From a bacterium (GTDB lineage Bacteria > Oederibacteriota > CAKKQC01): DNA of 64,000 nt. A model generated the notes under the pieces. The model worked only from the letters and a program-made list of their open reading frames with translations. It was not told the DNA's origin and did no database searches. Both the position numbers and the translations under genes were made by a program. Shown one piece after another: positions 10,620-52,779 of this stretch (the first letter of the stretch is position 1; each line of letters starts with the position of its first letter). The stretch covers positions 62,001 through 126,000 of the forward strand of contig CAKKQC010000007.1 of assembly GCA_919901855.1 (NCBI GenBank), given 5' to 3'.

Positions 10620-10622
10620 GAT

Positions 10623-24028: not shown

Positions 24029-25366
24029 CTACCGGAGCGTCTTGGCGACGGCCTTTCGGTAGAGCGTCTCGCCGTTGGCGAAAACCTGGATCGTGTATGC
24101 CATGTTGTATCTGGCGGGAATCCGGTGCTCGAGCAATCCGTCCCACTCTGCGGAGTAGGTGCCGGGGCCGATGCGGTGCAGTTCCACGAGGATGCGGAGC
24201 GGCTTCCCTTCCTGGTCCAGAAGCCGGGCGCCGAAGTCCGAGGCGGTGGTCACCTCGATCGTGATCCGCGCCTTCTCCCCCCGCTCGGGGAAGAAATAGA
24301 CCAAGTCCTCTTCCGTCGGGAGCATGGCTGGCTCCGGGACCGGCAGGTGCGGGACGGGCGCGGGGATGGTTTCGGGCCCGGGTTCGGATTTGGGCGCGGG
24401 CGGACGGGGGGGCTTGGCACGTGCCGGCGCGAGCCGGATTCCCAGCGTGCCGTAGTGGCAGACCCCCAGGCTGCCGACGGGCACCATGGCGTAGTCGAAC
24501 TGCAGGCCCAGTCCGGACGGCCGGCGCCACAACAGGCCGAGTCCGACGCGCGGCTGGACAACCTGCACGCTCACGGGGGTGTAGCGGAAGCCCGAGCGGA
24601 GGTAGAACGTGACCCCGGCGCCGCCGGGATACCCGAACCAGTAGAGGGCGCCCATCCCGCCGTGCATGAACCCCTCCCGGAGGACTTGGCCCTCGGCCCC
24701 CGCCGAGAACCCCTCCGGGCCGCCGAACAGGCCGCGGGGGAAGACGCTGAGAAGTCCGGCGCCGCCGACGAACTGGCCCGTATACGACCGGCCCGCGCCG
24801 CGTCCGAGCGGCCCGGCCAACCCCCAGACCATGAGAGCCTCGGAGGGTTGCAGCATGTGGCGCGCCTGCACGCCCACCTCGGCGGCAGCTCCCGAGTTGG
24901 AGACATCCGGCAGGTCCTGGAGGATGCCGTTGATCCTGCCGACGGCGGCCACCCGGGATGGCCCCGTGTCCACGAGCATGACCTGGGCGACCGCCCGGCC
25001 GCCCCATTCGCTCGCCGACGCGTTCCCCTCCTCGCCGCGGTAGGATCCGTCGGCGTTCTCGATGGTCCTGGGCACGCCCACGGCGCTGAAGAGGAACGCC
25101 TCGCCGCCGAGTCGCAGGATCTCGCCCACTCCTCCCTGGTAGCCGAGGCCGAACCACCGCATCCCGGGGCTCATCAGGATCGTGCTGGTCTCGATGAGCG
25201 ACCCCTCGCGCCAGGGATCCTCGAGCGCAAGGCCCCCGGATCCCGCCTGCCGGGCGGAGGTCAGCACGGAAAGACTCTCGCCGAAGCCCGTGCCCACGTT
25301 GGCGGGCCATCCCGGACGATCCGGGACGGACAGGGCGAGGGCGAGCACGAGCCCGAGGCGTCTCAT
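24029..25366 (-). CDS. Outer-membrane beta-barrel protein (PorV/PorQ-like) with FlgD-like C-terminal domain
   Basis: A 445-residue protein with a signal peptide (RRLGLVLALALSVPDRPGWPA). Residues about 25-330 show repeated amphipathic glycine-rich strands ending in LQFDYAMVPVGSLGVCHYG, a pattern close to the last strands of PorV/PorQ barrels. A proline-rich linker follows (about 335-365). The last 80 residues (ARITIEVTTASDFGARLLD, then YSAEWDGLLEHRIPARYNMA) resemble the FlgD-like Ig fold found at the ends of exported cargo proteins. Its ATG overlaps the TGA of the 3585-residue subtilase gene upstream (25363-25366), so it is probably that protein's dedicated export or anchoring partner. Barrel assignment is moderate. 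Confidence 0.65.
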   Translation of the reverse strand: MRRLGLVLALALSVPDRPGWPANVGTGFGESLSVLTSARQAGSGGLALEDPWREGSLIETSTILMSPGMRWFGLGYQGGVGEILRLGGEAFLFSAVGVPRTIENADGSYRGEEGNASASEWGGRAVAQVMLVDTGPSRVAAVGRINGILQDLPDVSNSGAAAEVGVQARHMLQPSEALMVWGLAGPLGRGAGRSYTGQFVGGAGLLSVFPRGLFGGPEGFSAGAEGQVLREGFMHGGMGALYWFGYPGGAGVTFYLRSGFRYTPVSVQVVQPRVGLGLLWRRPSGLGLQFDYAMVPVGSLGVCHYGTLGIRLAPARAKPPRPPAPKSEPGPETIPAPVPHLPVPEPAMLPTEEDLVYFFPERGEKARITIEVTTASDFGARLLDQEGKPLRILVELHRIGPGTYSAEWDGLLEHRIPARYNMAYTIQVFANGETLYRKAVAKTLR

Positions 25367-28300
25367 TCCACGATCAGCCTTCCCTGGTCCCGGAAGGCTC
25401 CGGCCTCGACCGTCCAGAAGAAGACGCCGGGCGCGACCGGCCGGTTCGCCGAGTTCCGTCCGTTCCATTCGGCCGAGCAGTCGGGCGCCGGTACCGCGGA
25501 CCAGACGCGCAGACCGCGCAGCGTGTAGACCGCGACCGTGCTCCCGGGCGGCAGGCCCTGGAACTTGACCGTGCCCCGGACGGCCCGGCGCGGGTTGTAC
25601 GGATTGGGGTAGACCCGGAACGGTACGCCGCAGTACGAGGGCGGCGGGGGAACGTACGGGTCTAGGATGGCGACCGAGACGATGTTGCTCTCGACCTCGC
25701 GGTATGTCCCATCCACCACGCCATGAAACGCGGCCGTCGTCCAGTTGTCTCCGAGGGGCTTCCCGGTGACGGAGACGGTCAGGGTCACGCTCCCGGCCGC
25801 TCCGGGCGGCAGGTCGGGCAGTGACCAGTCCACCTTCGTGCCGTCGAAGACACACCCCGTGCCGCAGTGGTCGAATACCGCGCCCGCCGGAATCGTGTCC
25901 CAGACCTTGAACGCCATGGCCGTGTCCCGGCAATGGTTGGCGAACTCGATCGTGTAGGTGAGCAGGTCGCCCCGCAGGACGCCGGGCCGGGAGGACCGCT
26001 TCGTCAGCGTGACGCCCGTGTCCCGGACCTCGACGGGTGGCGCCGCGGCGGTGACGACGGGCTGGGGCGTGCCGCAGCCGTTCCGGAACGACGCCGACGC
26101 CGCGTGCGAGAGCGAGAAGACGCTGCAGGTCGGCACGGGCGCCACGGTGAGCAGTACCGTCAAGCGCGCGCCGGGCGCGAGCGGAGGCAGCGTCCAGGAT
26201 GCCACGGAACCGGAGAGCGTGCCTCCCGCCACCCACGTGGACCCGGCCGGCACCGTATCCCAGAGCGCGAGGTTCGCGATCGTGTCGGTTCCCGTGTTCG
26301 TGCAGGTCAGGGCGAAGACGACGGTGCCGGCGGAGGACGCCTGGAAGATGCTGGGCACGATCCCGAGGTCCAGCCGGGCCTGCACGACTCCCACCGTGCA
26401 CGTGTTGCTCCAGGCCGGCGGCTGCGGGATCGCCGCGCTGTTCGCCAGGTCCGCCCGGGCGCCGTGGACCCCGAGCGAGCCGGTCACGGTGACGGTCAGG
26501 AATAACCCCGCACCGGCGCCGGGTGGCAGGTTTGGCAGGATCCAGGTGGTGTGTGTGCCGTCGAACGAGCATCCGGTGCCTCCGCCGCACGACCCGTACA
26601 GCGCCCCCGCGGGCAGGGTGTCGGTGACCGTTACGCTCGTGGCGGTGTCCGTCCCCGTGTTGGTAATCGAGAATCCGTACACGAGGAGGCCGCCGAGGCA
26701 GGCCGGGGCCGGGGCGGGAATCTGCCGGATAGCCAGCCGGGCCTGCGTGATCGCCACCGTGACGGGGTTGCTGATGGCGGAGCCGGGGGCGAGGGCGGTG
26801 TTCGTGAACCAGGCGGAGAACCGGTTCGACGGAGTCGTGGCCGTGATCGTCGCCGTGAACCAGACCTCGACCGTCCGGCCCGGGCCGAGGTCGGCCAGGG
26901 CCCAGCCCACGCGAACACCGTCGAACGCGCCGCCGTCGCAGTGGTCGTACACGACGCCCGCGGGCAGGGTGTCCAGCAGGCTGATCCCGATCGCGGTGTC
27001 GGAGCCGGCGTTGAAGGTCCGGAGCGTGTACGTGACGAGACTGCCGTCGGGGACGGGGGAGCCCGAGACGGTCTTCGTGAGCACGAGGTTCGCCCGGCGA
27101 ACCGCCACGCAGGCCGCCGGACTCGAGCGCGGGCGGGCGTCGAACAGGAGCGTCGCGGAAGCCGCGTTGCACACGGTGTCACCCTCGGCGAGCGTGGCCG
27201 AGGTGCGCACCCGGAAGGCGAGCCAGCCGGAGGCGCCGGGATACGCGCGGTCCACGGTCCAGCGGAGGACGAGGGGAGGCGCCGTGCCGTCCGCCGGCTC
27301 GCCGGCCGTCCAGGGGCCGGCCGTCGACGGCCCGTAGGCGGACGCCGTGAGAGAGGGGGTGCCTGCCGGGTCCGGGTATGCGAGGAACCCGAGGCTGGGG
27401 GCGGCGTACCGGGTGCCGGGCGGCATGGTGTCCGTGATGACGAGGCCGCGCGCGATCCCTCCGGCCGTGTTCGTCCATCGGATCGTGTAGAGGATCTCGC
27501 CGCCAGCGGGCACGCCGTACGCGGGCAGGGCCTCCTTCACCAGCTCGGGCGACCCCGGCGTCACCGCCACCGTGACGGGGTTGCTGATGGCGGAGCCGGG
27601 GGCGAGGGCGGTGTTCGTGAACCAGGCGGAGAACCGGTTCGACGGAGTCGTGGCCGTGATCGTCGCCGTGAACCAGACCTCGACCGTCCGGCCCGGGCCG
27701 AGGTCGGCCAGGGCCCAGCCCACGCGAACACCGTCGAACGCGCCGCCGTCGCAGTGGTCGTACACGACGCCCGCGGGCAGGGTGTCCAGCAGGCTGATCC
27801 CGATCGCGGTGTCGGAGCCGGCGTTGAAGGTCCGGAGCGTGTACGTGACGAGACTGCCGTCGGGAACGGGGGAGCCCGAGACGGTCATCGTGAGCACGAG
27901 GTTCGCCCGGCGGACGAGCGTGCAGGCCTCCGGGCTCGGGCGCGGAGGGGCGTCGAACAGGAGGGTCGCGGACGCGGCGTTGCAGACCGGATCGCCTTCC
28001 GCGAGCGTGGCCGAGGTGCGCACCCGGAACGCGAGCCAGCCGGAGGAGCCGGGATACGCGCGGTCCACGGTCCAGCGGAGGACGAGGGGGGCAGGTGTTC
28101 CGCCCGGCGGCTCGCCCGCCGTCCAGGGGCCGGCCGTCGACGGAGCATAGGCGGACGCTGTGAGCGAGGGGGCGCCCGCCCAGTCCGGATACGCGGCGAA
28201 CGCGAGGCTCGCCGGCGAATACGACGTGCCGGGCGGCAGGGCGTCCGTGATGACGAGACCGCGCACGATCCCTCCGGCCGTGTTGGTCCACCGGATCGTG

Positions 28301-31300
28301 TAGAGGATCTCGCCGCCGGCGGGCACGCCGTCCGCGGGCAGGGCCTCCTTCACCAGCTCGGGTGACCCCGGCGCGATGGCCACCGTGACGGGGTTGCTGG
28401 TCACGGGACCCAGCCATTGGGTCGCGCTGTCAAGGAATCCGGCTGCCCCGCGGTTGATTGCCCCGTCCAGCGCGCCGGTGGCGCTGACCGTGACCGCGAG
28501 CGTGGCGGCTGCTCCCGGCACGAGCTGATCGATGGTGAACACCACCTTCGTCCCGTCGAAGGCGCACGTGGTGCCCCCGGAGCACGCGACGAAGCCGGCT
28601 CCGGGCGGCAGCGTATCCCAGACCACGATGTCGCGCGCGCGGTCCGTACCCCAGTTCGTGATCTGGAGGTAGTAGTCGAGGAGACTCCCGTCCGGAACGA
28701 CTTCCTGGCTCGCGAACTTGGCCAGGGCGATCCGGGGCGTCACGAGGAAGACGCTGACGGGATTGCTCGGCTTGTCCGGTGCGACCTTCCCGGCCTCGTC
28801 CCGGTACCCGAACCGGGCGATGTTGGGTCCGAGCGTAAGGCCAGATCCGTTGGCCGAAACGGTCACGGACACGGTGCCGGACGAGCCGGGCGGAAGATCC
28901 GGCGGCAGTTGCCATGTCACGATGCCCTCGTGCACGGTACACGACAGGCCGCCGCTGCAGGCGACGAAGTCGGCGCCCGGGGGAAGCGTGTCCCAGAGGG
29001 CGACCTGGCTGGCCGTCATCGCCCCCGCGTTCGCGTAATCGATGGTGTAGGCGAAGGGCATGCCCCGGTTCAGGATCCAGCCGCTCGGGGTCTTGGTGAG
29101 CCGGATATCGATCCCGACCGGGTTGACGACCTCGTTGCTGATCGACGTCCGCGAGCCGAGGAACACCGTAGCCGAGGCGCTGTTCGCAATCACCGCGCCT
29201 GGCTCGAACGCGGTGGCCGACACGACCAGCCGGTACCGGATGAAGCCGCTCCGGTCCGGGGCGGCCCGGTCCACGACCCATCTCAACAGGAGCGGCACGT
29301 CGGCCAGGTCGGGCGGCTCCCCGGCGGTCCACGGCCCGTCGATGGACGGACTCCACGCCACTCCGGCGAGCGACGGCGTCCCCAGGTCGTCCGGCCTCGC
29401 CCAGAACTCGAGGCTGGGAGAGCGGTATCGCGTGAGGGCCGGCAGGTTGTCCGTGATCGTGAGGCCGTAGAGGGTGTCCCCGCCCACGGTCCTCCAGGAG
29501 ATGGTGTAGGTCAGCTCGGTGCCGTCCAGGACCGCCCCACTCGGCGAGGAGTCCTTGAAGAGCGACGCCGTGCTCCGGAGCGATCCGATCTCGGTGGTCA
29601 CGTATTGGGTGAAGGAGAAGGACTCGCCGGGACCGATGGTGAGCGGTGCGGTCTTGCCCCAGTAGTAGACCATGGCGCTGTCGGTGCCCGAACCCGTGTT
29701 GACGAAGTCCCAGGCTTCCCCGACGGACGTTCCCCATGACGCGTACCGGAGCTCGTCGGGCTGGGTGGCGGGCCGGGCCACGTCGCACCCGCTCACGCTC
29801 CCGAACACGCTGAAGGTCGGCGAAGAGGGGAAGTCCACCTGCTCGTACCGCGGGAAGTCCGGCGGCGCGAACGTGACGAAGGTGTCGCTGAAAACCCCGT
29901 CGGGATCGCGCGACCTGAACCACGAATCGTCGCTGCTCGCGATCATCCAGTCCCAGAGGTACCGGACGCCGTACTGGCGCGCGGATGCCGTAATGTTGTT
30001 TACCGAGACGGTGTGCCGGACCTTGGAATCCGCCAGGCTGCTGCCCGAGATCGCGACATCCTCGATCACGATGTAGTCCGGCAGGTTGTAGGTGGCCCGG
30101 AACTCCTTCGGCCCGAGCGCGGTCAGGGAGCAGGGGTAATCCGACATCCTGCCGGCCGTGTAACCCGCCTCGACGGTCGGGTAGCCGTCCTCGTTGGTCC
30201 ACACGGTCAGGCCGTCGACGTCGCGCACGCTGAAGTACGAGGTGGACTGGGAGGGATAGATGACGTTCTGGTTCGGGTGGGGATGGTCCTCCCCGGTGCG
30301 GACCGTGAACTGGCCCATCCCCGCGTTGTCGGCGCTCTCTCCGGTACACTCGACGGTCAGGATGCCGTTCGTGAACACGCACGGAATCGCGCACCCGTCG
30401 GAATCCTCGCCGGACACCGGCAATCCCGTCAGCTGGTCGATCCCGGTCGCGGTCGCCGTGAACTGCACGTTCCCGACGCCGGTGACGCTGAAGGTCCACA
30501 GGAAGGTCTGGCTCGCCCCCGGCCCCAGGGCCACGGGACCGGGCGGAACGGGGCCGGCCAGGAGCTGCATGGCCAGCGGGTTGACCGGGATCCAGATGGA
30601 GGGCGACACCCCGGTCAGGGTCCCCGTCCCCGGGTTCTCGGCCGTCAGCGCCGCCAGCACGATGTCGCCCATGGCGGGATTGGGCGGCGTCACGGTGAGG
30701 CTGACGACCACGCAGGCCGAGGTGGGGCGGTACCGGATCACGCGCCAGTTTTCGGCCTGGCCGGCGTCGGAACGGTCCTCGCTGCCCGCCAGGAGAATGT
30801 CGCCGGAGGGGGCGATGGCCACTCCGTATGCCTCGTCGTAGCCTCCCGCCGGACCGTCGTAGCTGACGGACCACAACTCCTCCCCGGTCGAGTCGAACAG
30901 GACCATGCGCCAGTCGTAGTTCGTGCCCAGGTCGGCCCGATACTCGCTCCCGGCGAGGAGGACCCGGCCGTTGACGTCGACGGAGACCGCGTGGGCCGTG
31001 TCGTACCCGTTCCCGGGGTCGTTGTACGACTTCGTCCAGAGCAGGTTGCCCGCGGCGTCGTACGTTCGCACGAGCTGGTCGGAGTCCTGGCCGATGTCCC
31101 ACCGGTATTCGGATCCGGCCACGACGATGCGGCCGGCGGGGTCGATCGCGACGGCGGTGGCCTGGTCCGTGCTGTTGGCCGGGCTGTTGTACGACCGTTC
31201 CCAGAGGAGGGATCCGTCGGGATCGTACCGGCGCACGAGCCAGTTGTTGCCCTGCCCGAGGTCGAGGCGATTCTCGTACCCCGCGACGACGATGTCGCCG

Positions 31301-34300
31301 GCGGAATCCACGGCGACGCCCTCCGCCCGGTCGGAGCCGCTCCCGGGTCCGGTGTATGAACGGCTCCAGAGGAGGGCGCCATCGGGATCGTACTTGAGGA
31401 TCCGCCAGTTGTCTCCCTGGCCGAGGTCCGTGCGGGCTTCGTATCCGGCCACAACGATGTTCCCCGCGGCATCCGCCGCCACTGCGACGGCCTGATCGTC
31501 GCCGTTGCCGGGGCTGTTGTAGGAACGGCTCCAGAGGAGGGCGCCGTCGGAATCGTACTTGCGCACATGCCAGTTGTTGCCCTGGAGGAGGTCCCAGCGT
31601 GCCTCGGCTCCCGCGACGATGATATTGCCTCCGCCATCGATTGCCACGGCGTAGGCGCGGTCGAAGTAGTGGGCGGGAGAGTCGTAGGTCACGGTCCAGA
31701 TCAGGTTGCCCGCGGGCCCGTACTTCCGGATCAGCCAGTTGCCGTCCTGGAAGATGTCGTACCGGCTCTCATGGCCGGCGACGACGGCGTTGCCCGCCCC
31801 GTCCACGGCCACAGCCGCCGCAGCGTCGGCGTAGTTCGCGGGGGAGTCGTAGTCCACGCTCCACACCTCGTTGGGCGGGCACCGCGCGGCGACCAGGGCG
31901 GTCGCGATGTCCAGCCTCACGCTGTGGACCGAGACCGGACGGTGCAGGCACGCATCCTCGCCCGTCACGGTGGCCGTGAACACGACGGATCCCGCCGCAT
32001 CGGCGAGGTAGGTCCAGGTGAACGAGACCGATCCGCCGGGGTCGAGGACCACGGGACCGGCTGGCGTCGGACCGGTGACCAGGCTGGCGGCGCCCCCGGC
32101 CGGATGGCATACGAGCGCGGGGCTGAGGTCGAACAGCGGACCGGTGCCCGGGTTCGAGGCGTCCAGCACGACCGTGACCGGTTGGCCGACCGCCGCGGTC
32201 GAGGGCGACACCGTGAGCGTGGAGGCCAGCTCGCCGGCGGTGCCGGTGACGAGGGTGCCGGACGAGATGGCGGCGAGCAGGCATTCGGTGACCGGATCCG
32301 CCGCCTGCGCCCTGCCGGTCAGCGCCACCGCGCCCTGCCCCGATACGCTCAGGGTCCAGACGAAGACTTGGCGGCTCCCTGCCGCGATCGTGACCGGACC
32401 GGACGGTGAGGGCCCGCTGATCGATTCGACCAGCCCCGCGCCCTGGTCGAGCGTGAGCCAGGGGGTGACGCCCGGAATGTCGACCGCGGCCGTGTCAGTG
32501 ACCGTGAGCGCGACCTCGAACCAGCGCCCCGTGCAGGCGCCGGCCGGGATCGAGAGGCTTCCGGTGAGCCATGCCGAGGCCAGCACCGTGATCGCGGGGG
32601 ATACCCAAGGCCCCGTGTCGAGCGGACTCCCGCTGTTCGCGTCCCGGCCCGCGACGGTCGCGGTGAACTCGACGCTTCCGCCGGCGGTCGCCCGGTAGAC
32701 CCAGGTCAGGCTCGTGCGCTGGCCTCCCTCGAGCCGGGCGACGGGAGGGGGGGAGGAGACGAGTGCGATCCCGCCGCTTCCTCCCGGTGAGAGGGCGGGC
32801 CCACCGACATCCAGCGCGGCGGCCTCCCCCGTGTTGGTGACGGTCGCGACGACGCTGACCAGGTTTCCGCCGCACACGGGGTCGGGCTGGGCCGTCAGCG
32901 GCCCTCCTTCCAGGACGGCGGGACGCTGGACGGTCAGCACGACCGCGGGGTGCGCGGCCGGCATGGCCACGCCCGAGTTGGCGTCCGCAGCGGTGACCGT
33001 GGTCGAGAAGCGGACGGGCCCGGCCAGGGTCGCCGTGAATGTCCACGTGAACACGATCGCGGAACCGCCGGGCAGGCTCAAGGGAGGCACGGGCCACGGT
33101 CCCGCGAGGAGGCCCGCGTTCCCGGTGCCCGCGAGCAGGAGCGGCTCCATGGTGAGCCCGGCCAGGGCGGCCTGTCCGGTGTTGGTGACAGTCAGTGTGA
33201 CCATGAAGGACTGGCCGGTGCTGGCCGGGTTCGGCACCGCCGCCAGCCGGGCATCCATGAGGGCCGGGACCTGGACGAGCGTTCCGGCCGCGTCGCCGTC
33301 GCACGGGTTGGCTCCCGCCGTCGCGTTGAACGCCGCCCGGCCCGTTCCGGTCGCCAGGAAGTGCCACGTAAACGTCTGCGCGCTTCCCGCCGGGACCGGG
33401 AACGGGCCGGCGGGAACGGGCCCCGACACGAGGGTGACCAGCCCCGCGGCGGGCACGACGGCGATGGCGGGAGACGCCGCCGTCGTGCCGCTGCCGGTGT
33501 TCGTCACCGTAAGCGTGACGTCGAAGGACTGCCCGGAGGAGACCGTGTCCGGCGCGGCCGCGTGCGTGTCGAAGGGAACCGGATCGTCCACGAGGTTCGC
33601 CGCGGGGTCGGACGGGAACGCACGGCTCTCGCCCGTAAACGTGGCCGAGGCCCGGTTCGTGACGAGCGATCCCTGGGCGAGGGCGGAGGACACCGCGATC
33701 CGGTAGCCGATCGATCCCGACCGGCCCGGCGCGACCCGGTCCACGACCCAGCGCAGGACCAGGGGCGCCGCCGTGCCGGGGGCCGGGAGGCCGGGCGTCC
33801 ACGGGCCGGCCGCCGAGGAGGCCCATGCCGATGACGTGAGAGCCGGCGTCCCGAGCGCGTCGGCCTGCGCGAAGAGACCGGGCTGGCCGGACGAGAACGC
33901 GGTGCCGTTCGGCAGGGTATCGGTGATGGTGAGCGCGAACGCGTTGGTCCACCCCCCCTTGGTCCACGAGATCGCGTAATCGACCGTCCGGCCCGCGCAG
34001 ACATATCCGGCGGGGTTCGCCTGCTTGCGCACGACCAGCCGCGGCACGCCCGTGACCGTGGCCGTCGTCGAGACGTCCGCAAACCGGGGATCGTCCACGC
34101 GGGCGACGACCAGGTGGCGTCCCGGAGTCGCCGACAGGACGAGTGACGTCGTGAACCGGGGCGGGGTGCCCGCCGTGGTCCCCGTGGCCGGCACGATCGC
34201 GGCTCCCGGCGGGGAGGACACCAGCGTGGCGCGCACGGGGACACCCCGGATGGCGGCTCCGGTTCCGTCCCGGGCGACGATCTCGAGGGCCGTGATGAGG

Positions 34301-37632: not shown

Positions 37633-37653
37633 GACGCGGGTATGATACCACTC
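37633..37653. promoter_or_regulatory. Ultra-compact bidirectional promoter with overlapping -10 elements
   Basis: The 21 bases between two divergent ATGs contain TATGATA (37641-37647). On the plus strand TATGAT (37641-37646) lies 7 bases before the ATG at 37654. On the minus strand TATCAT (37647-37642) lies 9 bases before the ATG at 37632. Both transcripts would be leaderless, and only one polymerase could bind at a time. Confidence 0.6.
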
Positions 37654-40149: not shown

Positions 40150-40150
40150 T
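40145..40150 (+). promoter_or_regulatory. Candidate -10 (GATAAT) of the 1892-residue surface-protein gene
   Basis: GATAATC lies 15 bases before the ATG at 40166 and overlaps the TGA... end of the glycosyltransferase gene (stop at 40147-40149). TTGGGAG between box and ATG could act as a ribosome-binding site, so a short leader is more likely than a leaderless start. Confidence 0.4.
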
Positions 40151-40165
40151 CGCCTTGGGAGTCCC

Positions 40166-43100
40166 ATGAATCACCGATGGCGAACGGTCCTGGCTCTGGC
40201 GGTCCTGGCCGCGGCCGGGATTTCCCGCCCCGCCTCCGCTGCCTGTCCCGACCTCATCCTGCTGGGCACCACGGACTACAACGGATCGGCAAACGACCAC
40301 GATGCGGCTTGGGCCGTGGCCGTCGACGGGAGCGGGAATGTCGTGGTCGTGGGCTATGAGTTCATCTCACCAACGAAGGCTAACTGGCGGATTCGGAAAT
40401 ACGACGCCTCGCTGACGACACTGTTGGCAACGACGGACTACGACGGGGGGGCCGTCAACGGCACCGACGCCGCCCATGCCGTCGCCATCGACGGATCCGG
40501 GAACATTCTGGTGGCTGGGAGTATGTACAGCGGCGGGACGCACTGTATGATCCGCAAGTACGACCCGATGCTCACGACGCTGTTGGCTGCGACCGAGTAC
40601 GCGGCTGCGGCCGACGCCAGGGGTCTCATCCTCGACGGCAGCGGCAACGTCGTCGTGGCGGGCGAGGGGGGGAGTCCCGCCAGCGGGAACGACTGGCGGA
40701 TCACGAAGTTCGACCCCGCCTTGACCACGGTCCTGACGACCACGGACTTCAGCAGTCCCGGGTTTGCTTACGACATGCTGTGGGCGCTTGCGCAGGACGG
40801 GTCCGGGAACATCATCGCCGCGGGGACCGAGGGCGACCAGTTCTCCCCCTTTACCGAGAAGTGGCGCATCCGGAAGTACGACGCGTCGTTGACGACCCTG
40901 CTCGCGTCGACGGACTACATCGCGGGCACTGGATTCTCCAACGCTCCTTCTGCCGTCGTTGTTGGCGCCGGCGGGAACATACTTGTAGTCGGAATCGAAG
41001 ATGGGGTCTGGCAGATGCGGATCAGGGAGTACAACGCGTCGTTGACGACGCTGCTGGCAACGACAGTCTACGCCGGGCCGGGAACCAACGAGCTGGGTCG
41101 ATCCGCCGCCCTCGACAGCAGAGGGAACCTGGTGGTGGTCGGGGAGGAGCAGGGGTTGAGTTGCGGATCGAACTGGAGGATCGGGAAGTACGATGCCTCG
41201 CTGACGACGATGCTGGCGACCACGACCTACGAAGCCTGCCACAATCCGGGGGACAACGCCGGCCCGTGGGCGATCGCGGTTGACGGCCGGGACAACCTCA
41301 TGGTGGCCGGATACGAGACGGACTCCACGGGGTATCACAACTGGCGCATCAACAAGTACGGCCAGCCGGCGTGCCTCGATGCGGTGCTGGCGTTCTCGCG
41401 GACGATCGTGTCGCCGGGGCAGTGGGTCACGGTCATGCTCACGGTCACGAACGCGGGCGGGGCGGTCCTGAACGGAATTCCGACACTGGGGCAGGACGCG
41501 GGCCCCGGCACGGGCGCGATCACGGCGGGGCCGACGCCGTCGGCGACGACCGTCCTACCGACCGGCCAGTCGATGACGTTCACGTGGTCGTTCTCGGCGT
41601 CGGGCGCCGGACTCGTCGAGCTGACCGGGACCTTGACCGGCTGGGATCTGTCGCTGTCGGCGACCACGTGGGTGCAGGCCACGGGTTCCTTCCTGATCCA
41701 GAAGCGGCCGGCGCTGTCGGCGTCGCTGGTCATGACCTCGGCTTCCAGTCTATTGCCGGGCGACGCCATCGTCCTCGTCTTCACGGTCAGCAACTCGGGG
41801 GAGGCGGGGGCGACGGTTACACCGCGGCTGCCCAAGGTCTCGGGGTCGGGGACCGGCTACCTCGCGCTCAGTCCGGTGGCCCTGGTCGTGCCCGGCGGCG
41901 GCAGCGTCTCGTTCACCTGGGTCTACACCGCCGGGCCCGCGGCGTCCTCGCTCTCGTTCACGGCTTCCGGAAACGGCACCGACGTCAACTCCGGGGTCGC
42001 GGTTCCGGTGCCGCAGGGGGCGGCGGGGCCGGTCGTCGTCACCGCTCCGTCCACGCCATGCGTTTCCGCGCCGACCCGGATCACGTTCTACGACGGCCGG
42101 GCCAACGGGGACGACGAGGGCAACGGGATAGCGGTGCCGTCCTCGGGATCGATCTTCGTCGCCTGCGAGGAGAACCGCGAGGAGAGCGGCCGGCTGACGG
42201 ACTGCCTCGTGATCGGCTACCCGCCAGGCGGCGGCGCTCTCTACTGGGCGGGCGAGTACGGGGCCGTCGGGAGCGTGGCGGACGCCGCGTACGGGGTTAC
42301 GACGGGCCCGGACGGCTCCGTCTACTCGGTCGGCCATTCGGGGAACAGCGCGTGGATAGAGCGCTGGGACCCGTTCCCGCCGGGCGCCATGGACTGGATC
42401 CTGCTCCTGGCGGAGTCGCCCGGGGGGCCCGACGAGCTCAGGTCCGTGATGTTCGCCCCCGACGGGAATCTCGTCGTTGCCGGAAAGCAGCGGCGCACGG
42501 ATATCGGCCATGGCGACGACGTCTGGGTCGCGAAGTACGACCCGACGGGCGGGCTCGTCTGGTCGGTCAACTACAACAGCCCCGCTAACTCGGACGACCT
42601 GGCCTACGCCGTGACCGTGGACCTGTCTGGATCGATCTACGTCGCGGGAGCCGAAACCCGGACGGATCTCGGCCAGGGACGGAACATCCTCGTGCTCAAA
42701 TACAGTGCCTCCGGCGCCCTGCTCTGGACCCGGTCGTACACGAGCCCGGGGATCGCCAACGACGAGGGGCGCGCGATCGCCGTGGACGGGACCGGGAATC
42801 TCTACGTGGGAGGCTACGAGACGCGCAACGATCTCGGGCAGGGCGAGAACGGCTGGGTCCGCAAGTGCTCGCCCGCGGGCACGCCCCTCTGGACGGCCAC
42901 CTTCAACTCGCCGATGACGCGGTTCGGCGGGCCGAACGACCGGGCGCTCGGGATCGCGGTGGACCCCGTCAACGGCGACGTCTTCGCGACCGGGCGGGTG
43001 GAGCGTCCCGGACAGGCGGCCAACGTCCTGTTCGCCCGGTGGGACGCGTCGGGGACGCTCCTCGATCTCCAGACCCGGAACGGGCCGAACAACGGCAACG

Positions 43101-45844
43101 ATGAGGGCCGCGCGATCACGGTCGGTCCCGGCGACGACCTCTACGTGGCCGGGTTCGAGAACTGGGACAACCTGGCCCAGAAGGAGAACGTGACGACGTA
43201 CCAGTGGCCGCGGCCCGGGTGCCTCAAGGCGGCGCTGTCGGTATCGCCGGTACCCGTCTGGTCGGGACTGCCGATCGAGGTCGTGCTCACGGTCACGAAC
43301 ACGGGGGCGAACGCGGTCACGTCGGTGACGCCCGTGCTCACGATCGCGCCCGGCGCCGGGCTCCTGTCGCTGCTGACCGCGCCCTCGCCGCTCGCCAGCC
43401 TCGGCCCGGGCGCGTCCGCGTTCTTCACCTGGACCTACGCGACCGCGGGGACGGGGCCCGTGGCGTGCACGGCGACCGTGACCGGCGTCGAGTCCGTGAG
43501 CGGGCTGTCCATGACGGCCTGGGGGTACGCCGAGACCCTCGTGCAGGGCGCCGCGAGTCTGGCGGGCGCGGTCAGCCTGCCGGCATCGACCTGCCAGGCG
43601 ATGCCGTTCACGCTGGCGGTGACAATCACCAACACCGGGCTGGGCGGCGCGTGGCTGGGAAGCGCGACCGTGCTCGTCACCGGGTTGCCCGCGTCCGCCC
43701 TCGGCGGCCCGGTGCCGCCGCTGCCGCTCACGCTCGGGGTGGGGAACGCGGTCACGCTCGCCTGGACGTGGTCGGCGGCGGGCGCGGGCGCCGCGACTTT
43801 CTCGGTGACCGTGACCGGCGCGGATCTCACTGGCGGCGGCGGGCTGGCCGTGGGGCCGCTGGGCGCCGATATCGCCGTCACGGGGCGCGCGGCACTCGAG
43901 GCGAGTGCTCGCGCCACCCCGGCCGCGGCCGTGGGAGGCGGGATCACGGTGGAGCTCACGGTGACGAACACCGGGCTCACCATGGCGACCGGCCTCACCC
44001 CCGCCCTCGCGGTCTCTCCGCCCGGCGCGCCCGTTCTCGGCTGGGCCGGTCCGTCGCCACCGGGCCCGGTCGCCCTCGCCCCCGGCGCGGCCCAGACCTT
44101 CGCCTGGTCGTACACGGCGACGGGATGGGGGACCGTGACCTTTGCGATGACGGTGGCCGGGGCTGATTCCTGTGGCGCGATCTCATCGGCGGCGACCGCA
44201 ACTGCGTTCCTCGGGACACCAGCCACGCTCGTCGGGTCCGTCGTGTCCGCGATCGCCTCCCCGCTCTGTGTCGGATCGTATGTCCTTGTCGTTGTCTCGG
44301 TCACGAACACTGGGAATGCTCCTGCCGTTGGCGTTGCGGGAACGACGACCCTGTTCATCGAGGGCCCGGGCACCGCGTCGCTCCAGTTTGTGTCGAACCC
44401 GGTGGCGTCGCTCGGACCAGGCGCCTCGGCTCACTTCACTTGGCAATACGCGACTACCGGTGTGGGAGCGATTCGGTTCACCGCGACCGTAGCCGGTACG
44501 GATGCGGCTTTGGGGGGGCCGGTGCGGACGGCGCCGTTGACCACCCCGACTACGGATCTTACCGTGCCAGCCAATATCTGGATACATCCGGCGGTGTCGC
44601 CGGTGGTGGCGATGCTGGGCCAGTTGGTTACCGTGACTTTGACGGTGACCAACATGGGAGGGGACGCCGCTGGGGTTTCGGCGGCTGCGTGGACAATCGA
44701 ACCCGGCATGACCACGCGGATATCCGGGCCCTCACCTCCGGGTCCCATTGCCCTACCGTCCGCGGCGTCCCAGACGTTCAGCTGGACGTTCTCCGCGTCC
44801 GGAGCAGGGGTGTCAACTTTCACCTTCAGCGTAACGGGATCGTCATGCGGAGGCCCGGTTGCGTTTATGCGCGGTGACGTTCGCCCATTCTGGATTGTCC
44901 GGCCCGCCCTCCTGGTCGCGAGCGGCCTCACGCTGGCCCCCGGCAGTCCCGGGGCGGGTGCGACCGTCGTGGCCACGATGGTACTGCGCAACGACGGCGA
45001 CCTCGATCTCACGGTCACCTCGTTCTCGCGCACGGTAGTCGGCGTCGCCGGGCTTGGGGCGCCGGGGGCGCCGACGCCGGGGCCGGGGTTCATGCTCACG
45101 GCGGGCGGCTCGCAGTCGGTCACGTGGACGCAGACGACGACAGCGCCGTGTGGAGTGGCTGCGGAAACCGTCAGCGCCGCCGGCGTCGAGTTCAGCACCG
45201 GGCGGATCTTGTCGTCCAATACGGTGACCTCGAACGCGGTTTCGATCACGGGCACCGCGACGGGCTTCACGCTCTCCGCCTCCGCCGCGAAGGCGAACGT
45301 GGGAACTCCGGTCACGCTGACGGCCATGGTAACCGACGCGTGCGGCGGGGCCGTGCCCAACCTGACCGTGACGTTCACCGTGAGCGCCGGCGGCGGGTGG
45401 CTCTCGGCCGTCACGGGGACCACGAACTTCTCCGGGCGGGTCACGGTCACGCTCACGCTCGGGCTCGACGAGGGGCGCAACACCGTGGTGGCATACGTGG
45501 GCGGGACGACGCTGACCGCCCTCGTGGCCGTCGAGGCCGTGAACCCGCTCGTCCTCACGTCGCCGGGCGCGGCGCTCGACAAGAACGTCCTCGTCCTCAA
45601 CTCGGGGCAGGTCGTGCTGGCCCGCATCTGGCCGCTCAATGGCGACCCCATCGTGACCCGCATCTTCACCGCATCGGGGAGGTTGGTCCGCACGCTCAGG
45701 AAGCTGACGCCCTCCGGCCGCGGCCAGTTCCTCGTCGAGTGGGACGGGCTGAGCGAGGACGAGTTCGCGGTCGCCCGCGGCGTCTACCTCGTGGACGTCG
45801 AGGGCGGCGGCATCCACCAGATCCTGAAGGTGTTGGTTCGCTGA
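40166..45844 (+). CDS. Giant exported surface protein with two SBBP beta-propellers, CARDB/Ig repeats and FlgD-like C-terminus
   Basis: 1892 residues with a clear signal peptide (RWRTVLALAVLAAAGISRPASA). Seven propeller repeats span about residues 30-400 (AVAVDGSGNVVVVGYE, NWRIRKYDASLTTLLA). CARDB-like Ig modules follow, then a second set of seven propeller repeats (about 635-1015) closely like the propeller of the giant subtilase (NYNSPANSDDLAYAVTVD). More Ig/CARDB modules run to about 1800. The last 80 residues (IFTASGRLVRTLRKL, VEWDGLSEDEFAVARGVYL) form a FlgD-like sorting domain. There is no catalytic domain, so adhesion, binding or display are the likely jobs. It shares domain stock with 25363-36120 but has no adjacent barrel gene. 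Confidence 0.88.
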   Translation: MNHRWRTVLALAVLAAAGISRPASAACPDLILLGTTDYNGSANDHDAAWAVAVDGSGNVVVVGYEFISPTKANWRIRKYDASLTTLLATTDYDGGAVNGTDAAHAVAIDGSGNILVAGSMYSGGTHCMIRKYDPMLTTLLAATEYAAAADARGLILDGSGNVVVAGEGGSPASGNDWRITKFDPALTTVLTTTDFSSPGFAYDMLWALAQDGSGNIIAAGTEGDQFSPFTEKWRIRKYDASLTTLLASTDYIAGTGFSNAPSAVVVGAGGNILVVGIEDGVWQMRIREYNASLTTLLATTVYAGPGTNELGRSAALDSRGNLVVVGEEQGLSCGSNWRIGKYDASLTTMLATTTYEACHNPGDNAGPWAIAVDGRDNLMVAGYETDSTGYHNWRINKYGQPACLDAVLAFSRTIVSPGQWVTVMLTVTNAGGAVLNGIPTLGQDAGPGTGAITAGPTPSATTVLPTGQSMTFTWSFSASGAGLVELTGTLTGWDLSLSATTWVQATGSFLIQKRPALSASLVMTSASSLLPGDAIVLVFTVSNSGEAGATVTPRLPKVSGSGTGYLALSPVALVVPGGGSVSFTWVYTAGPAASSLSFTASGNGTDVNSGVAVPVPQGAAGPVVVTAPSTPCVSAPTRITFYDGRANGDDEGNGIAVPSSGSIFVACEENREESGRLTDCLVIGYPPGGGALYWAGEYGAVGSVADAAYGVTTGPDGSVYSVGHSGNSAWIERWDPFPPGAMDWILLLAESPGGPDELRSVMFAPDGNLVVAGKQRRTDIGHGDDVWVAKYDPTGGLVWSVNYNSPANSDDLAYAVTVDLSGSIYVAGAETRTDLGQGRNILVLKYSASGALLWTRSYTSPGIANDEGRAIAVDGTGNLYVGGYETRNDLGQGENGWVRKCSPAGTPLWTATFNSPMTRFGGPNDRALGIAVDPVNGDVFATGRVERPGQAANVLFARWDASGTLLDLQTRNGPNNGNDEGRAITVGPGDDLYVAGFENWDNLAQKENVTTYQWPRPGCLKAALSVSPVPVWSGLPIEVVLTVTNTGANAVTSVTPVLTIAPGAGLLSLLTAPSPLASLGPGASAFFTWTYATAGTGPVACTATVTGVESVSGLSMTAWGYAETLVQGAASLAGAVSLPASTCQAMPFTLAVTITNTGLGGAWLGSATVLVTGLPASALGGPVPPLPLTLGVGNAVTLAWTWSAAGAGAATFSVTVTGADLTGGGGLAVGPLGADIAVTGRAALEASARATPAAAVGGGITVELTVTNTGLTMATGLTPALAVSPPGAPVLGWAGPSPPGPVALAPGAAQTFAWSYTATGWGTVTFAMTVAGADSCGAISSAATATAFLGTPATLVGSVVSAIASPLCVGSYVLVVVSVTNTGNAPAVGVAGTTTLFIEGPGTASLQFVSNPVASLGPGASAHFTWQYATTGVGAIRFTATVAGTDAALGGPVRTAPLTTPTTDLTVPANIWIHPAVSPVVAMLGQLVTVTLTVTNMGGDAAGVSAAAWTIEPGMTTRISGPSPPGPIALPSAASQTFSWTFSASGAGVSTFTFSVTGSSCGGPVAFMRGDVRPFWIVRPALLVASGLTLAPGSPGAGATVVATMVLRNDGDLDLTVTSFSRTVVGVAGLGAPGAPTPGPGFMLTAGGSQSVTWTQTTTAPCGVAAETVSAAGVEFSTGRILSSNTVTSNAVSITGTATGFTLSASAAKANVGTPVTLTAMVTDACGGAVPNLTVTFTVSAGGGWLSAVTGTTNFSGRVTVTLTLGLDEGRNTVVAYVGGTTLTALVAVEAVNPLVLTSPGAALDKNVLVLNSGQVVLARIWPLNGDPIVTRIFTASGRLVRTLRKLTPSGRGQFLVEWDGLSEDEFAVARGVYLVDVEGGGIHQILKVLVR

Positions 45845-45891
45845 CCGGCAGCCGGTCAGCGAATTCGAGTTTCGGCGGACGCCGAAACTCG
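45840..45891. terminator. Tandem hairpins between convergent genes
   Basis: First hairpin: GCTGACCGG (45840-45848), loop CAG, CCGGTCAGC (45852-45860), beginning in the stop codon of the surface-protein gene. Second: CGAGTTTCGGC (45866-45876), loop GGAC, GCCGAAACTCG (45881-45891). The minus-strand acetyltransferase gene ends at 45899, so the pair can stop transcription from both sides. Confidence 0.65.
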
Positions 45892-45898
45892 TCGTGCG

Positions 45899-47125
45899 CT
45901 AAAAGGCGTCAATCTCCCAGAACACGGGCCGGCCCCGGGGGAAGAGGGCGTCGAGGAGGACGATCTCGCGGTCGCCGACCGTGGACGCGCGGGCGAAGGG
46001 CTGGAGCGAGAACGGTTTCGCGCCGCTGAAGACCTCGATCCACCGCGCCGGCTCCAGCACCGCCCGCGGCAGCTCCCCGGACGCCGTCGCCTCCACCTCG
46101 ACGCGGTCCTCGTTGAGCCGCACAGTCGCGGTCTGGTCGCGGTACCCGATTACGACGGCGCCACGGGCCACGCCCGCCCGCGCGGCGCGCGCGGCAAGCT
46201 CGGGGGCGAGGGCGCGGAGGAAACCTGCGAGGTACGCGATACGGAGCAGGATCCAGTCGGCGGGGATGTCGACCGGAGCTTCGGTGAACGGGGCGAGCGC
46301 GGCTCCCAGCTCGAAGCACGGGGCGGGATACTGGAGTCCGCGCACGCCCCGGAGAAACGCCTCGCGCAAATAGGCGCGCGCGAGGGCGCGGGTGGACTCC
46401 TCGGCGCCGGGCAGGGTGCCGAACTCGAGGACCTTGGACCACGTATGGTCGGGGTCCGCCGTCGCGCGGAGGTAGGCGGCCGGCTGGGCGTGGCTGTCCT
46501 CGGCGACCAGCGCGCACGCGGGCTCCTCCTTCGGATACACGGTCGTCCACTCGGGCTGCCGCTCCCATACGGCTTCGGCCGCCGGGATCGTGCCCGTGAA
46601 CCCGGCCGCGTACCGGCTCCGGATCGCGAGCAGGGCCGCGCGGTCGCGACCGAAGTCGATCGCGCGGACCACGGGGCCGGGGCCGGCGCCGGCGGGCGGC
46701 CGGAGCCGGAGCAGGTGCGTCTCCCGGCGCGGCGACGGTTCGTACCCGAGCGGCTGGTAGAAACCCGGGATCTGGGTCGAGAGCAGGGAGAGGGGACGGC
46801 CGTCCGCGCGCATGAGTTCGTGGGCGGCGGCCAGGAGCCGCCGCGCGAGCCCGCGCTTGCGCCACGCGGGATCCGTGACGACGTTCGCGATACCGCCGCA
46901 GGGCACCCGGGCGGACCCGAACGCGAGGTCGAACCCGATGGCGTGGACGGTCGAGACGACCCGGCCGGCGTCCCGGACCACGAGCGGCGCGCCCGGCAGG
47001 TTCTGGGGGTCCCGGCGCATCCGGGTCGCGAAGTACGCGGCGCCGACGCCGAGCTCGCGGGCGCAAAGCGCCGCGATGCCGTCGAACTCCTCCGGGCGTG
47101 CCGGTTCCACCGTGAGGTCCGTCAT
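45899..47125 (-). CDS. Eis-like GNAT N-acetyltransferase (copy 1)
   Basis: 408 residues with an N-terminal GNAT fold: acetyl-CoA-binding stretch VVTDPAWRKRGLARRLLAAA, then LSTQIPGFYQPLGYE, which is typical of the Eis family. A second GNAT-like domain and a C-terminal SCP2-like region follow, again as in Eis. Such enzymes acetylate amines of aminoglycosides, peptides or polyamines; the substrate here is unknown. No signal peptide. A TACACT box 9 bases before the ATG lies in the loop of a 7-bp inverted repeat. A second, divergent paralogue is at 51615-52772. Confidence 0.85.
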   Translation of the reverse strand: MTDLTVEPARPEEFDGIAALCARELGVGAAYFATRMRRDPQNLPGAPLVVRDAGRVVSTVHAIGFDLAFGSARVPCGGIANVVTDPAWRKRGLARRLLAAAHELMRADGRPLSLLSTQIPGFYQPLGYEPSPRRETHLLRLRPPAGAGPGPVVRAIDFGRDRAALLAIRSRYAAGFTGTIPAAEAVWERQPEWTTVYPKEEPACALVAEDSHAQPAAYLRATADPDHTWSKVLEFGTLPGAEESTRALARAYLREAFLRGVRGLQYPAPCFELGAALAPFTEAPVDIPADWILLRIAYLAGFLRALAPELAARAARAGVARGAVVIGYRDQTATVRLNEDRVEVEATASGELPRAVLEPARWIEVFSGAKPFSLQPFARASTVGDREIVLLDALFPRGRPVFWEIDAF

Positions 47126-47128
47126 GCC

Positions 47129-47147
47129 GCCCTGAGTGTATCAGGGC
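47129..47147 (-). promoter_or_regulatory. Start-proximal -10 (TACACT) inside a perfect 7-bp inverted repeat
   Basis: GCCCTGA (47129-47135), GTGTA, TCAGGGC (47141-47147). On the minus strand TACACT (47140-47135) lies 9 bases before the acetyltransferase ATG at 47125. The repeat centred on the -10 is a candidate operator. Confidence 0.55.
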
Positions 47148-47221
47148 CATGGATTGACGGCCCTGTCGCATTGCAGGGAAGGGGTTTCAGCGTTCCCCGG
47201 GATCTCCGGGGCTTGTCCGGT

Positions 47222-47252
47222 TTGACACTTTCCGGCCCAAGCCTTCTATAAT
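47222..47252 (+). promoter_or_regulatory. Consensus promoter TTGACA-N19-TATAAT
   Basis: TTGACA (47222-47227), 19 bases, TATAAT (47247-47252). Both hexamers are perfect; the spacer is two bases longer than optimal. The start should fall near 47259, giving a leader of about 24 bases with an AGGAGG ribosome site before the ATG at 47283. GCCT/AGGC flanks the -10. This is the strongest conventional promoter seen in the window. Confidence 0.75.
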
Positions 47253-47282
47253 CAGGCCATCGAGGGACGAGGAGGTGCGGGT

Positions 47283-48239
47283 ATGCACAAGCGGGCGGGG
47301 GCGGGCATTCTGAAGCTGGCATCAATCATCGTGGTCGCCGGGATGGTGGCGGGCGCCGCGCGCGCCTCGGACCTGCTGGGTCCCATCTGGCATCTCAACG
47401 GCAAGCACATCGGCGACGCCGATCCGCTGGTGTGGACGATCGAGTACTACGACGAATGGGGCCGCACGGTCGTCGACGCCGCGGGCGGACATTTCTACCA
47501 CGACCGGTGCTGCGGCGGCGTGGTCACGCACGATCCATCGTGGGTTTACCCCGCGAAGTACTACGGCCAGTACAAGATGTACTACATCGGGACCACGATG
47601 CGGTACCGGATCACGCTCACGAATCCCGGCAATCGCAGCTACACGAACCTGCGCATCGTCGCGATCCAGGAGTACCTGACGAACGACGGGACGTGGGGCG
47701 AGTGGATTTCGCCCGACGCCGCGAAGGACTGGTATATCACCGAACTCCGGTCGGGCCAGACGGTGGTGTTCGAGGGCGACCTCTACATCCCCTACGGGGC
47801 GCATGGCGGCCTCGACCAGACGCACCTGCAGGTCCAGCACTTCGATCCGAACAATCCCACCGGCGGGGGCGCGGTCATCCTCGACGACGCGCAGGCCGCC
47901 ATCTGGTGCCCGCCGGACCTCCAGCAGGGCGCCACGGCCCCGGCGCCGGGCGGCATTCTCGTGAAGGCCGGCGATCGCGGCTGGGTCCAGCCGGGCTCCG
48001 GCTCACCGGCGCGGATCGAGGTCGGCGCGACCGACGCGGGGCAGATCTCGCTCCGCATCTACGACCGCCGCGGCACGCTGGCCCGCGAGATGTTCGCCTA
48101 CGCGAGCGGCGAGGGTACGGTCGTGTTCTCGTGGGACGGCACGCTGTCGTCCGGCCAGCCCGCGGCCCCCGGCGTCTACCTCGTCGTGGCCGACGGCTCC
48201 GGCGTCCACGCCAAGGAGAAGCTCGCGGTCGTCAGGTAG
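47283..48239 (+). CDS. Small exported protein with FlgD-like C-terminal sorting-type domain
   Basis: 318 residues. A signal peptide (about residues 1-28, ending AGAARAS) is followed by an unrecognised beta-rich domain (HFYHDRCCGG, TMRYRITLTNPGNRSYTNLRI), probably Ig-like, with a vicinal cysteine pair. After a short linker the last 75 residues (ISLRIYDRRGTLAREMF, VVFSWDGTLSSGQPAAPGVY, EKLAVVR) form a FlgD-like domain like those ending both giant proteins. A consensus promoter and an AGGAGG site suggest high expression. It is followed by a terminator and then a PorV/PorQ-like barrel gene. Function is unknown; a surface or secreted structural protein is likely. Confidence 0.75.
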   Translation: MHKRAGAGILKLASIIVVAGMVAGAARASDLLGPIWHLNGKHIGDADPLVWTIEYYDEWGRTVVDAAGGHFYHDRCCGGVVTHDPSWVYPAKYYGQYKMYYIGTTMRYRITLTNPGNRSYTNLRIVAIQEYLTNDGTWGEWISPDAAKDWYITELRSGQTVVFEGDLYIPYGAHGGLDQTHLQVQHFDPNNPTGGGAVILDDAQAAIWCPPDLQQGATAPAPGGILVKAGDRGWVQPGSGSPARIEVGATDAGQISLRIYDRRGTLAREMFAYASGEGTVVFSWDGTLSSGQPAAPGVYLVVADGSGVHAKEKLAVVR

Positions 48240-48242
48240 CCC

Positions 48243-48290
48243 AAGGGCGGGAGGCGTTGCGACGGTGAACGCCTCCCGCCCTTTCGTTTT
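48243..48290 (+). terminator. Strong intrinsic terminator overlapping the next gene's start
   Basis: A 14-bp perfect stem, GGGCGGGAGGCGTT (48245-48258) and AACGCCTCCCGCCC (48268-48281), extends to 16 bp with flanking AA/TT. The loop is nine bases (48259-48267) and TTTCGTTTT follows. It begins four bases after the stop of the exported-protein gene. The GTG start (48265) of the PorV-like gene lies in the loop and its GGGAGG ribosome site in the stem. Confidence 0.85.
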
Positions 48291-49182
48291 CCTCCCGGTC
48301 CTCGTGGCGTGCGCGTGTTCGCGCCCCGCCCTCGCCGACGACGCTTCCAATCCCCTCGACCTCGTCGAGCCCGCGCGTATCCAGGCACTCGGCGGCGCCG
48401 CCGCCGCCGTTGACCGCGACGCCACCGGCGTCTGGCTCAATCCCGCCGCGCCGTCCGGGAGCGGCCGGTCCGTGACCCTCGGCGGCCAGCGGGGGTTCAT
48501 CGAGGACCAGACCTGGCAGATCTCGGGGGCGGCTCCCGCGGGCCCCCTGACCGCCGCGGCCGGCCTCGCGTACTACGACTCGGGAAGCATCACGCTCCGC
48601 AACACCGACGGGGGTGCCCGGCGGGTATCGGGGCAGCGGGACATCCTCGCCCTCGCCAACGCCAGCGGCGTCTTCGGGGGCGTCGTGAGCCTGGGGGGAT
48701 CGGTCAAGATCCTGCGCAGCGACCTCCTCGACCAGTTTCACGCGACGACGGTGGCCGCCGACGCCGGCCTCGTCGTGCGGCCGGCGGAGGACTTCGCGGC
48801 GGGCGTCAGTGTCGTCAACGTGGGGCGAAGGGTGCGGTACGCGGACGAGCGGGTGCCCCTGCCGGCGGCGGTCCGGGCGGGCGGATCGGCGGCGACGCCG
48901 GTCGAGGGCGATGGCGGGATCTCGCCCGACCGGCTTGCGGGGTTCTTGGACGCCGTCTGGCTCCTCCGCGAGCGCCGGGTCGAGTGGCGGGGCGGGGTGG
49001 AGGCGTACTGGACGCAGACGCTGGCCGCGCGGGCGGGTGTGAGCCCGTCGCGCGGCAACGAGTCCTGGCGCGCCGCCCTCGGGGTCGGGGTCTTCATCGG
49101 AAAACTGCGCATCGACTACGCGATCCAGCTCTCGGGCCCGTCTTCCCTCCCGCAGGTCCTGAGCCTCACCGTGCGGTTGTGA
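48265..49182 (+). CDS. PorV/PorQ family outer-membrane beta-barrel protein
   Basis: 305 residues from GTG 48265. That start is required to give a signal peptide (SRPFVFLPVLVACACSRPALA); a later GTG would leave it too short. The mature N-terminus carries the family signature IQALGGAAAAVDRDATGVWLNPAA, and glycine-rich alternating strands end in IDYAIQLSGPSSLPQVLSLTVRL, the usual PorV/PorQ closing strand. In type IX systems PorV shuttles cargo to the attachment complex. Its first codons lie in the terminator of the upstream exported-protein gene, which has a FlgD-like tail and may be its cargo. Confidence 0.88.
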   Translation: MNASRPFVFLPVLVACACSRPALADDASNPLDLVEPARIQALGGAAAAVDRDATGVWLNPAAPSGSGRSVTLGGQRGFIEDQTWQISGAAPAGPLTAAAGLAYYDSGSITLRNTDGGARRVSGQRDILALANASGVFGGVVSLGGSVKILRSDLLDQFHATTVAADAGLVVRPAEDFAAGVSVVNVGRRVRYADERVPLPAAVRAGGSAATPVEGDGGISPDRLAGFLDAVWLLRERRVEWRGGVEAYWTQTLAARAGVSPSRGNESWRAALGVGVFIGKLRIDYAIQLSGPSSLPQVLSLTVRL

Positions 49183-51556: not shown

Positions 51557-51614
51557 GGGACGTACTTTCAATTCTGCGATTATCCCGAGAATCGCAGAAT
51601 TGAAAGTACGTCCC
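51557..51614. repeat. Perfect 25-bp inverted repeat (REP/IS200-type palindrome)
   Basis: The arms 51557-51581 (starting GGGACGTACTTTCAATTC) and 51590-51614 are exact reverse complements around an 8-base loop, ATCCCGAG. The block is only about 45% GC, far below its surroundings, and fills the whole gap between two convergent stop codons. It resembles REP-like palindromes mobilised by IS200/IS605-family (RAYT) transposases. It can also act as a two-way terminator. Confidence 0.8.
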
Positions 51615-52772: not shown

Positions 52773-52779
52773 GGGTCCT

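Follow-up and report, generated by a model that had tools for sequence, protein, structure and literature searches.

Does an exported protein that ends in a FlgD-like domain, and whose gene is followed directly by one for an outer-membrane barrel, travel with a carrier of its own? This question is raised by a stretch of 64,000 nucleotides (C7:62001-126000, hereafter the window) in a 4.7 Mb assembly, 93% complete, from a bacterium of the FCPU426/Goldiibacteriota group, which is not part of Bacteroidota; in NCBI, FCPU426 stands among the candidate phyla with the rank of phylum. The initial annotation had read the locus as possibly type IX-like, each cargo having a PorV-like barrel to itself, and our analyses support this reading, with a SprA/Sov gene above cut-off and PorV-family genes by the dozen.

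Layout of the window

The window contains three FlgD-tail genes, two of which have a barrel gene directly 3', and both the positions of these five genes and the two adjacencies were right as initially annotated. Cargo 1 (25363-36120, minus strand) is an exported subtilase (S8) of 3585 aa with DUF11 repeats and a delta-60/SBBP beta-propeller region (Pfam: Peptidase_S8, E 4.8e-51; DUF11, E 1.7e-99), and its translation shows the D, H and S motifs DTGVDYTHPDF, HGTMVAGF and GTSFASP. The protein ends in ...DQGRLIVE, and its C-terminal putative export tail (25366-25623, minus strand; YPNPYNP...GRLIVE) is type A/PorZ-like. Pfam FlgD_ig misses this tail. It does give a PorZ hit (E 1.4e-4), which lies in the C-terminal portion of that model, and it reaches 59.6 bits in a tail HMM trained without it and 84.5 bits in a second profile, A5. 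The ATG start of barrel 1 (24029-25366, minus strand), a divergent PorV-family outer-membrane barrel of 445 aa with a signal peptide, overlaps the cargo 1 stop codon (ATGA).

Cargo 3 (47283-48239, plus strand) is an exported protein of 318 aa that ends in ...EKLAVVR, with a signal-like N-terminal sequence (MHKRAGAGILKLASIIVVAGMVAGAARA) and a DUF11-like region that matches DUF11 weakly. Its C-terminal tail (47976-48236, plus strand; ...SWDGTLSSGQPAAPGVYLVVADGSGVHAKEKLAVVR) scores 84.5 bits with A5 and 40.4 bits with FlgD_ig, and is the only one of the three window tails to pass the FlgD_ig cut-off (27). Barrel 2 (48265-49182, plus strand), a PorV/PorQ-family outer-membrane barrel of 305 aa and the predicted partner of cargo 3, starts with GTG 25 nt 3' of it. 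Directly after barrel 2, on the same strand, lie two genes without a Pfam match at E<=1e-5 (49205-51553, plus strand, 783 aa; 51495-52850, plus strand, 452 aa).

The expectation of a dedicated barrel per cargo holds in the window for cargos 1 and 3 but not for cargo 2 (40166-45844, plus strand), an exported beta-propeller/Ig protein of 1892 aa that ends in ...LKVLVR and carries CARDB, Big_1 and delta-60 repeats. Its C-terminal tail (45581-45838, plus strand; ...ARGVYLVDVEGGGIHQILKVLVR) scores 57 bits with A5 and 25.5 bits with FlgD_ig (cut-off 27). No barrel gene adjoins cargo 2 on its 3' side, where the next gene, for an opposite-strand GNAT acetyltransferase (45902-47125, minus strand), separates it from the cargo 3/barrel 2 pair. 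The region is flanked by large glycoside hydrolases, a GH2 enzyme (10237-13527, plus strand) and a GH92 enzyme with PA14 (56967-60170, minus strand), and an export tail was detected on neither.

The tails resemble type IX C-terminal domains

When a profile of 21 tails was compared with the PDB, PorZ came first (E 3.5e-11), followed by FlgD (about 2e-6), the PorU tail (1.9e-4), and then HBP35 and the RgpB tail (0.06). At E<=0.1, the PorZ model was matched by 18 of the 21 tails (best 6e-13) and the type A sorting domain TIGR04183 by 15 (best 7.8e-7); single tails may fall under the curated TIGR04183 cut-off, as in one example with 20.4 against 23 bits. Across the genome, a search with a tail profile gave 84 matches. 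By these comparisons the tails match type IX C-terminal domains, with PorZ as the best match.

The tails look FlgD-like because they have the Ig fold and the WDG...G.Y motif in common with FlgD_ig of the flagellar hook cap (PF13860). We considered flagellar FlgD as an identity for them and rejected it, since the tails, unlike FlgD_ig, terminate signal-peptide proteins encoded beside barrels, and PorZ is the better PDB match.

The barrels belong with PorV and PorQ

A profile of the genome's barrels matched PorV in the PDB with E 2.5e-27 and FadL with about 1e-4, and 46 of 50 barrels matched the PorQ model and 27 of 50 the PorV model. Barrel 2 scored 66.9 bits against the PorV/PorQ family NF033709, below the cut-off of 90, and failed the NCBI equivalog cut-offs for both PorV (NF033710, 27.6 vs 250) and PorQ (NF033711, 48.9 vs 220), so that by sequence it would be at most a member of the wider PorV/PorQ family and not a PorV or PorQ equivalog. 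Its AF2 model (pLDDT 90.2, pTM 0.84) had its best PDB matches in Foldseek with PorV from the F. johnsoniae translocon (8gl6_F, E 1.9e-12, TM 0.75; 6h3i_F), with FadL and TodX ranking after PorV.

Barrel 1 matched no family in Pfam or NCBIfam. Together with its two paralogues (43% identity, both 3' of a tail gene) it forms a three-member family that aligned with 50 PorV-family barrels over the C-terminal half (hhalign 97.4%, E 9.6e-12). The AF2 model (pLDDT 79) shows a barrel of about 14 strands and a separate C-terminal Ig-like domain; Foldseek placed OmpG first, with PorV chains 8gl6_F (E 1e-5) and 6h3i_F among the matches. Since OmpG tops this list, assigning barrel 1 to the PorV family depends mainly on the sequence profile and on context. 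The FlgD-like domain that the initial annotation had given barrel 1 (24044-24301, minus strand, about residues 356-441) scores weakly in sequence (our own tail HMM, 16.6 bits, E 8.7e-4), yet AF2 predicts a beta domain there with confidence, with beta strands over 356-441 at a pLDDT mostly >90, and FlgD 3osv is among the Foldseek matches. C-terminal extensions like this one are also found on barrels of contig C40. One barrel 1 paralogue, on contig C21 (L274:7883-9754, plus strand), has a TAG right after the barrel part and is without the C-terminal Ig-like domain of the other two.

Four PorV-family barrels carry C-terminal fusions of OmpA, CsgG/LpoB-like or TPR type (L088:3726-6044, plus strand; L071:9390-11387, minus strand; L119:3955-5274, plus strand; L078:3548-4795, plus strand), and in one of these a FlgD_ig domain separates the barrel from OmpA. 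These ends are possible built-in cell-wall anchors, and barrels that bear them are compatible with fixed complexes. In an analogous case in P. gingivalis, PorP binds the outer-membrane-associated PorE (PMC9143113), which binds peptidoglycan (PMC12618676).

Cargo-barrel pairing is the rule of the genome

NF033709 finds 58 PorV-family genes in the genome, several of them above the cut-off of 90, and 48 of the 58 lie directly 3' of a same-strand gene with a matching tail end, a strongly positive outcome for the suggestion that other FlgD-tail genes might neighbor PorV-like genes. All three barrel-1-type genes are likewise directly 3' of a tail gene, for a total of 51 pairs among 61 barrels. The median distance from cargo stop to the start of the PorV match is 90 nt. 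Cargo comes first except in three cases where a barrel gene precedes a tail gene, at least two of which lead into the next cargo-barrel pair. The tail HMM was built with 22 of the 48 paired tails, themselves chosen independently by Pfam FlgD_ig; one paired tail outside this training set is weak (11.9 bits), and none of 2110 reversed control sequences matched at E<0.1. Pairing is far beyond chance and is the rule of this genome.

The barrel-1-type barrels all follow tails that end in VE, and the cargo bodies in front of them are one Kelch protein and otherwise DUF11 proteins, and thus tail and barrel have been kept together while the body changes.

Tails and barrels have diversified together

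Among the 48 pairs, tail distances correlated with barrel distances (Mantel r 0.67), with a maximum of 0.15 in 10,000 permutations. Clusters of tails and barrels agreed as well (adjusted mutual information about 0.57-0.67, permutation maximum about 0.18), and all 13 of the 13 GGGV-class tails go with one barrel cluster. Some similarity between cargo bodies was present in 347 of 1128 comparisons; in the 781 comparisons of cargos without detectable body similarity, r was 0.58 (permutation maximum 0.16), so joint duplication alone would not easily explain the tail-barrel coupling. Matching trees would also arise, with no binding involved, if whole gene pairs had been duplicated together, and the independence from the body argues against this as the whole cause. 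Correlation of individual barrel loops with tail type was scattered, high for L1 and L3 and about zero for the others, the extracellular loops being taken from an inferred topology.

The tail of cargo 2 belongs to a clade made up of orphan tails on contigs C42, C84 and C6 and one that is paired (C12:47489), with its barrel encoded at C12:47557-48438. Since some orphan type B cargos share one carrier (PMC12618676), we predict by analogy that this barrel is the partner of cargo 2.

One SprA/Sov gene and a partial type IX core

The genome has one SprA/Sov translocon gene of 1954 aa, which scores 263.6 bits with TIGR04189 against an equivalog cut-off of 200, and whose nearest relative (65-67% identity) is in a record labelled Candidatus Coatesbacteria. 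Here the SprA gene, a tail gene and a PorV-family gene stand in a row, and a SprA gene followed by a tail gene recurs in three FCPU426 relatives.

The initial annotation had counted an absence of type IX core genes as part of what would refute it, and the SprA/Sov gene and the many PorV-family genes show that such an absence does not hold. The search that it proposed gave no PorU-type peptidase: no C25 peptidase (PF01364) was found in this 93%-complete genome, and the PorU-type model NF033707 matches only the tail region in it. C25 was present in 2 of 13 genomes searched; the relatives carrying this gingipain/PorU-type enzyme are G002 (C195) and G011 (C10) (L069, L068), and the presence of the cutting enzyme may vary within the phylum. 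The PorP/SprF barrel model (TIGR03519) found nothing in this genome at E<=0.01. GldL and GldM (TIGR03513, TIGR03517) gave no match in 13 genomes at E<=0.01, and no control genome matched either, so that this part of the search is without a positive control. The GldK fold is too common to be diagnostic.

Related loci in other genomes and phyla

All 20 phylum relatives have PorV-family genes, with 6 to 53 matches per genome. Of the 63 distinct PorV genes sampled from these relatives, no more than 28 are paired, in a sample biased to the highest-scoring copies, and this count is evidence against our best explanation. Ten genomes were reached via SprA loci, from Elusimicrobiota, Firestonebacteria, Aerophobetes and Sumerlaeota (one Firestonebacteria genome is also among the relatives), with 7 to 33 PorV matches each. 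In these, 26 of 29 testable sampled PorV genes stand behind a tail gene, including 17 of 17 in Elusimicrobiota, and the reversed controls gave none.

The type IX system has recently been called exclusive to Bacteroidota (PMC12618676), and another account allows it at most in further FCB phyla and nowhere outside them (PMC11285876). In FCPU426/Goldiibacteriota we find the translocon together with the carrier family and this type of tail, and SprA and paired PorV genes occur also in Elusimicrobiota and others. In the open-access literature, we found no earlier description of FlgD with PorV, of secretion systems of FCPU426/Goldbacteria or of PorV in Elusimicrobia.

Discussion

The two cargo-carrier pairs of the window, along with its orphan cargo, are likely to belong to a type IX-like exporter of the outer membrane, in which a dedicated PorV/PorQ-like carrier would draw its cargo through a SprA/Sov-type channel and then probably anchor it. 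From the genes, homologies and predicted folds, the pairing genome-wide and across phyla, and the coupled diversification of tail and barrel that were observed or computed here, we infer that cargo is exported, that tails bind barrels, that the anchoring is permanent and that the motor is of an unrecognised type. A signal peptide would take each cargo into the periplasm, where the loops of the PorV/PorQ-like barrel encoded just 3' would take up the Ig-like tail inside the single SprA/Sov-type channel, much as the tail is held inside SprA by PorV loops in F. johnsoniae (PMC10994853). The barrel would then draw the cargo out via the side opening of the channel, with export powered by the unrecognised motor. 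Since a PorU-type peptidase was not found, the tail would probably stay uncut and each cargo would be kept at the surface by its own barrel, in the way that PorQ keeps PorZ. The tail of PorU stays bound to PorV and that of PorZ to PorQ (PMC10202324), which, taken with the missing PorU-type peptidase, suggests that barrel and cargo stay together. Against this explanation weigh the failure to find GldL, GldM, PorP/SprF and a C25 peptidase by sequence (the first two searched without a positive control, and all in a genome 93% complete), the score of barrel 2 below its cut-off and the lack of a family match for barrel 1.

Could these instead be type IX carriers of the usual kind, released once export is over like PorV, with an unrecognised peptidase cutting the tails and the pairing serving only to balance expression? 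The SprA and PorV homology would suit this, as would the cutting of many type IX tails by PorU (PMC10202324) and the C25 peptidase of some phylum relatives. We nevertheless think it unlikely, since C25 was not found in this genome, the tails are closer to the uncut PorZ and PorU tails than to the cut RgpB tail, recycled carriers would make one per cargo unnecessary, and the OmpA- or CsgG/LpoB-like ends fused on several barrels suit a fixed complex. Repeated duplication of one operon, without functional coupling of tail and barrel, is improbable: joint duplication does predict congruent distances, and the 347 of 1128 somewhat similar cargo-body comparisons fit it, but the r of 0.58 persists among the 781 body-unrelated comparisons and the same gene order recurs in several other phyla.

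Two further explanations give the barrels another role. They may be FadL-like small-molecule channels, with the neighboring cargo in the same pathway and the tails as structural Ig domains, as would agree with FadL and TodX being the next structural matches and with the Ig fold common to tails and flagellar FlgD; this is very improbable, because PorV is far ahead of FadL by profile (2.5e-27 vs about 1e-4) and because each type of tail keeps to its type of barrel across bodies as different as subtilase, Kelch and DUF11. We give the least credence to barrels that export their partners alone, like two-partner secretion, so that SprA is not needed. The strict cargo-then-barrel order would fit such export, but the predicted fold is of the narrow PorV/FadL type, with PorV of the SprA complex and not FhaC/CdiB as best match, and a SprA gene is present and sits with a tail-gene/PorV-gene pair.

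A dedicated carrier for each exported cargo has precedents. In the P. gingivalis attachment complex, PorZ-PorQ and PorU-PorV are, like the pairs proposed here, surface proteins with an uncut tail held by a PorV-family barrel of their own (PMC10202324), and the likeness to PorZ-PorQ extends to the tails, which match PorZ best, and to the barrels, which match PorQ more often than PorV. P. gingivalis has two such pairs, whereas here there are about 50 with varied cargo, and a PorU-type peptidase was not found. For type B tails in F. johnsoniae, the PorP/SprF carrier gene is, as here, directly 3' of the cargo gene, and the system has cognate specificity with some orphan cargos on one shared carrier (PMC12618676); the components differ, however, type B tails and PorP/SprF barrels there and type A/PorZ-like tails and PorV/PorQ barrels here. 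The type A cargo of Bacteroidota has a SprA channel, a PorV-family barrel and an Ig-like C-terminal tail in common with our system, but all type A tails there use PorV (PMC12618676), as opposed to about 61 PorV-family genes and one SprA gene here. Cargo with its own barrel is therefore already known for type B tails and SprF, and retention of the tail has a forerunner in PorZ-PorQ, which makes the present system a fresh version of a known arrangement. New here are the dozens of PorV-family/type-A-like pairs, the use of PorV/PorQ barrels, the lack of a detected PorU-type peptidase and the location outside the Bacteroidota group. A broader reading, possible but more tentative, is of a peptidase-free type IX-like system in several phyla outside that group, with an own PorV/PorQ-type barrel per cargo as carrier and permanent anchor and a motor other than GldLM.

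These functional statements are all read from sequence, and at that strength the bacterium probably moves and holds its surface proteins with one dedicated carrier per cargo. Dozens of matched tail-barrel pairs served by one channel would amount to a natural experiment on tail recognition, from which specificity rules and type IX evolution may be read, and how these uncultured phyla equip their surface could be tested directly through the pairs.
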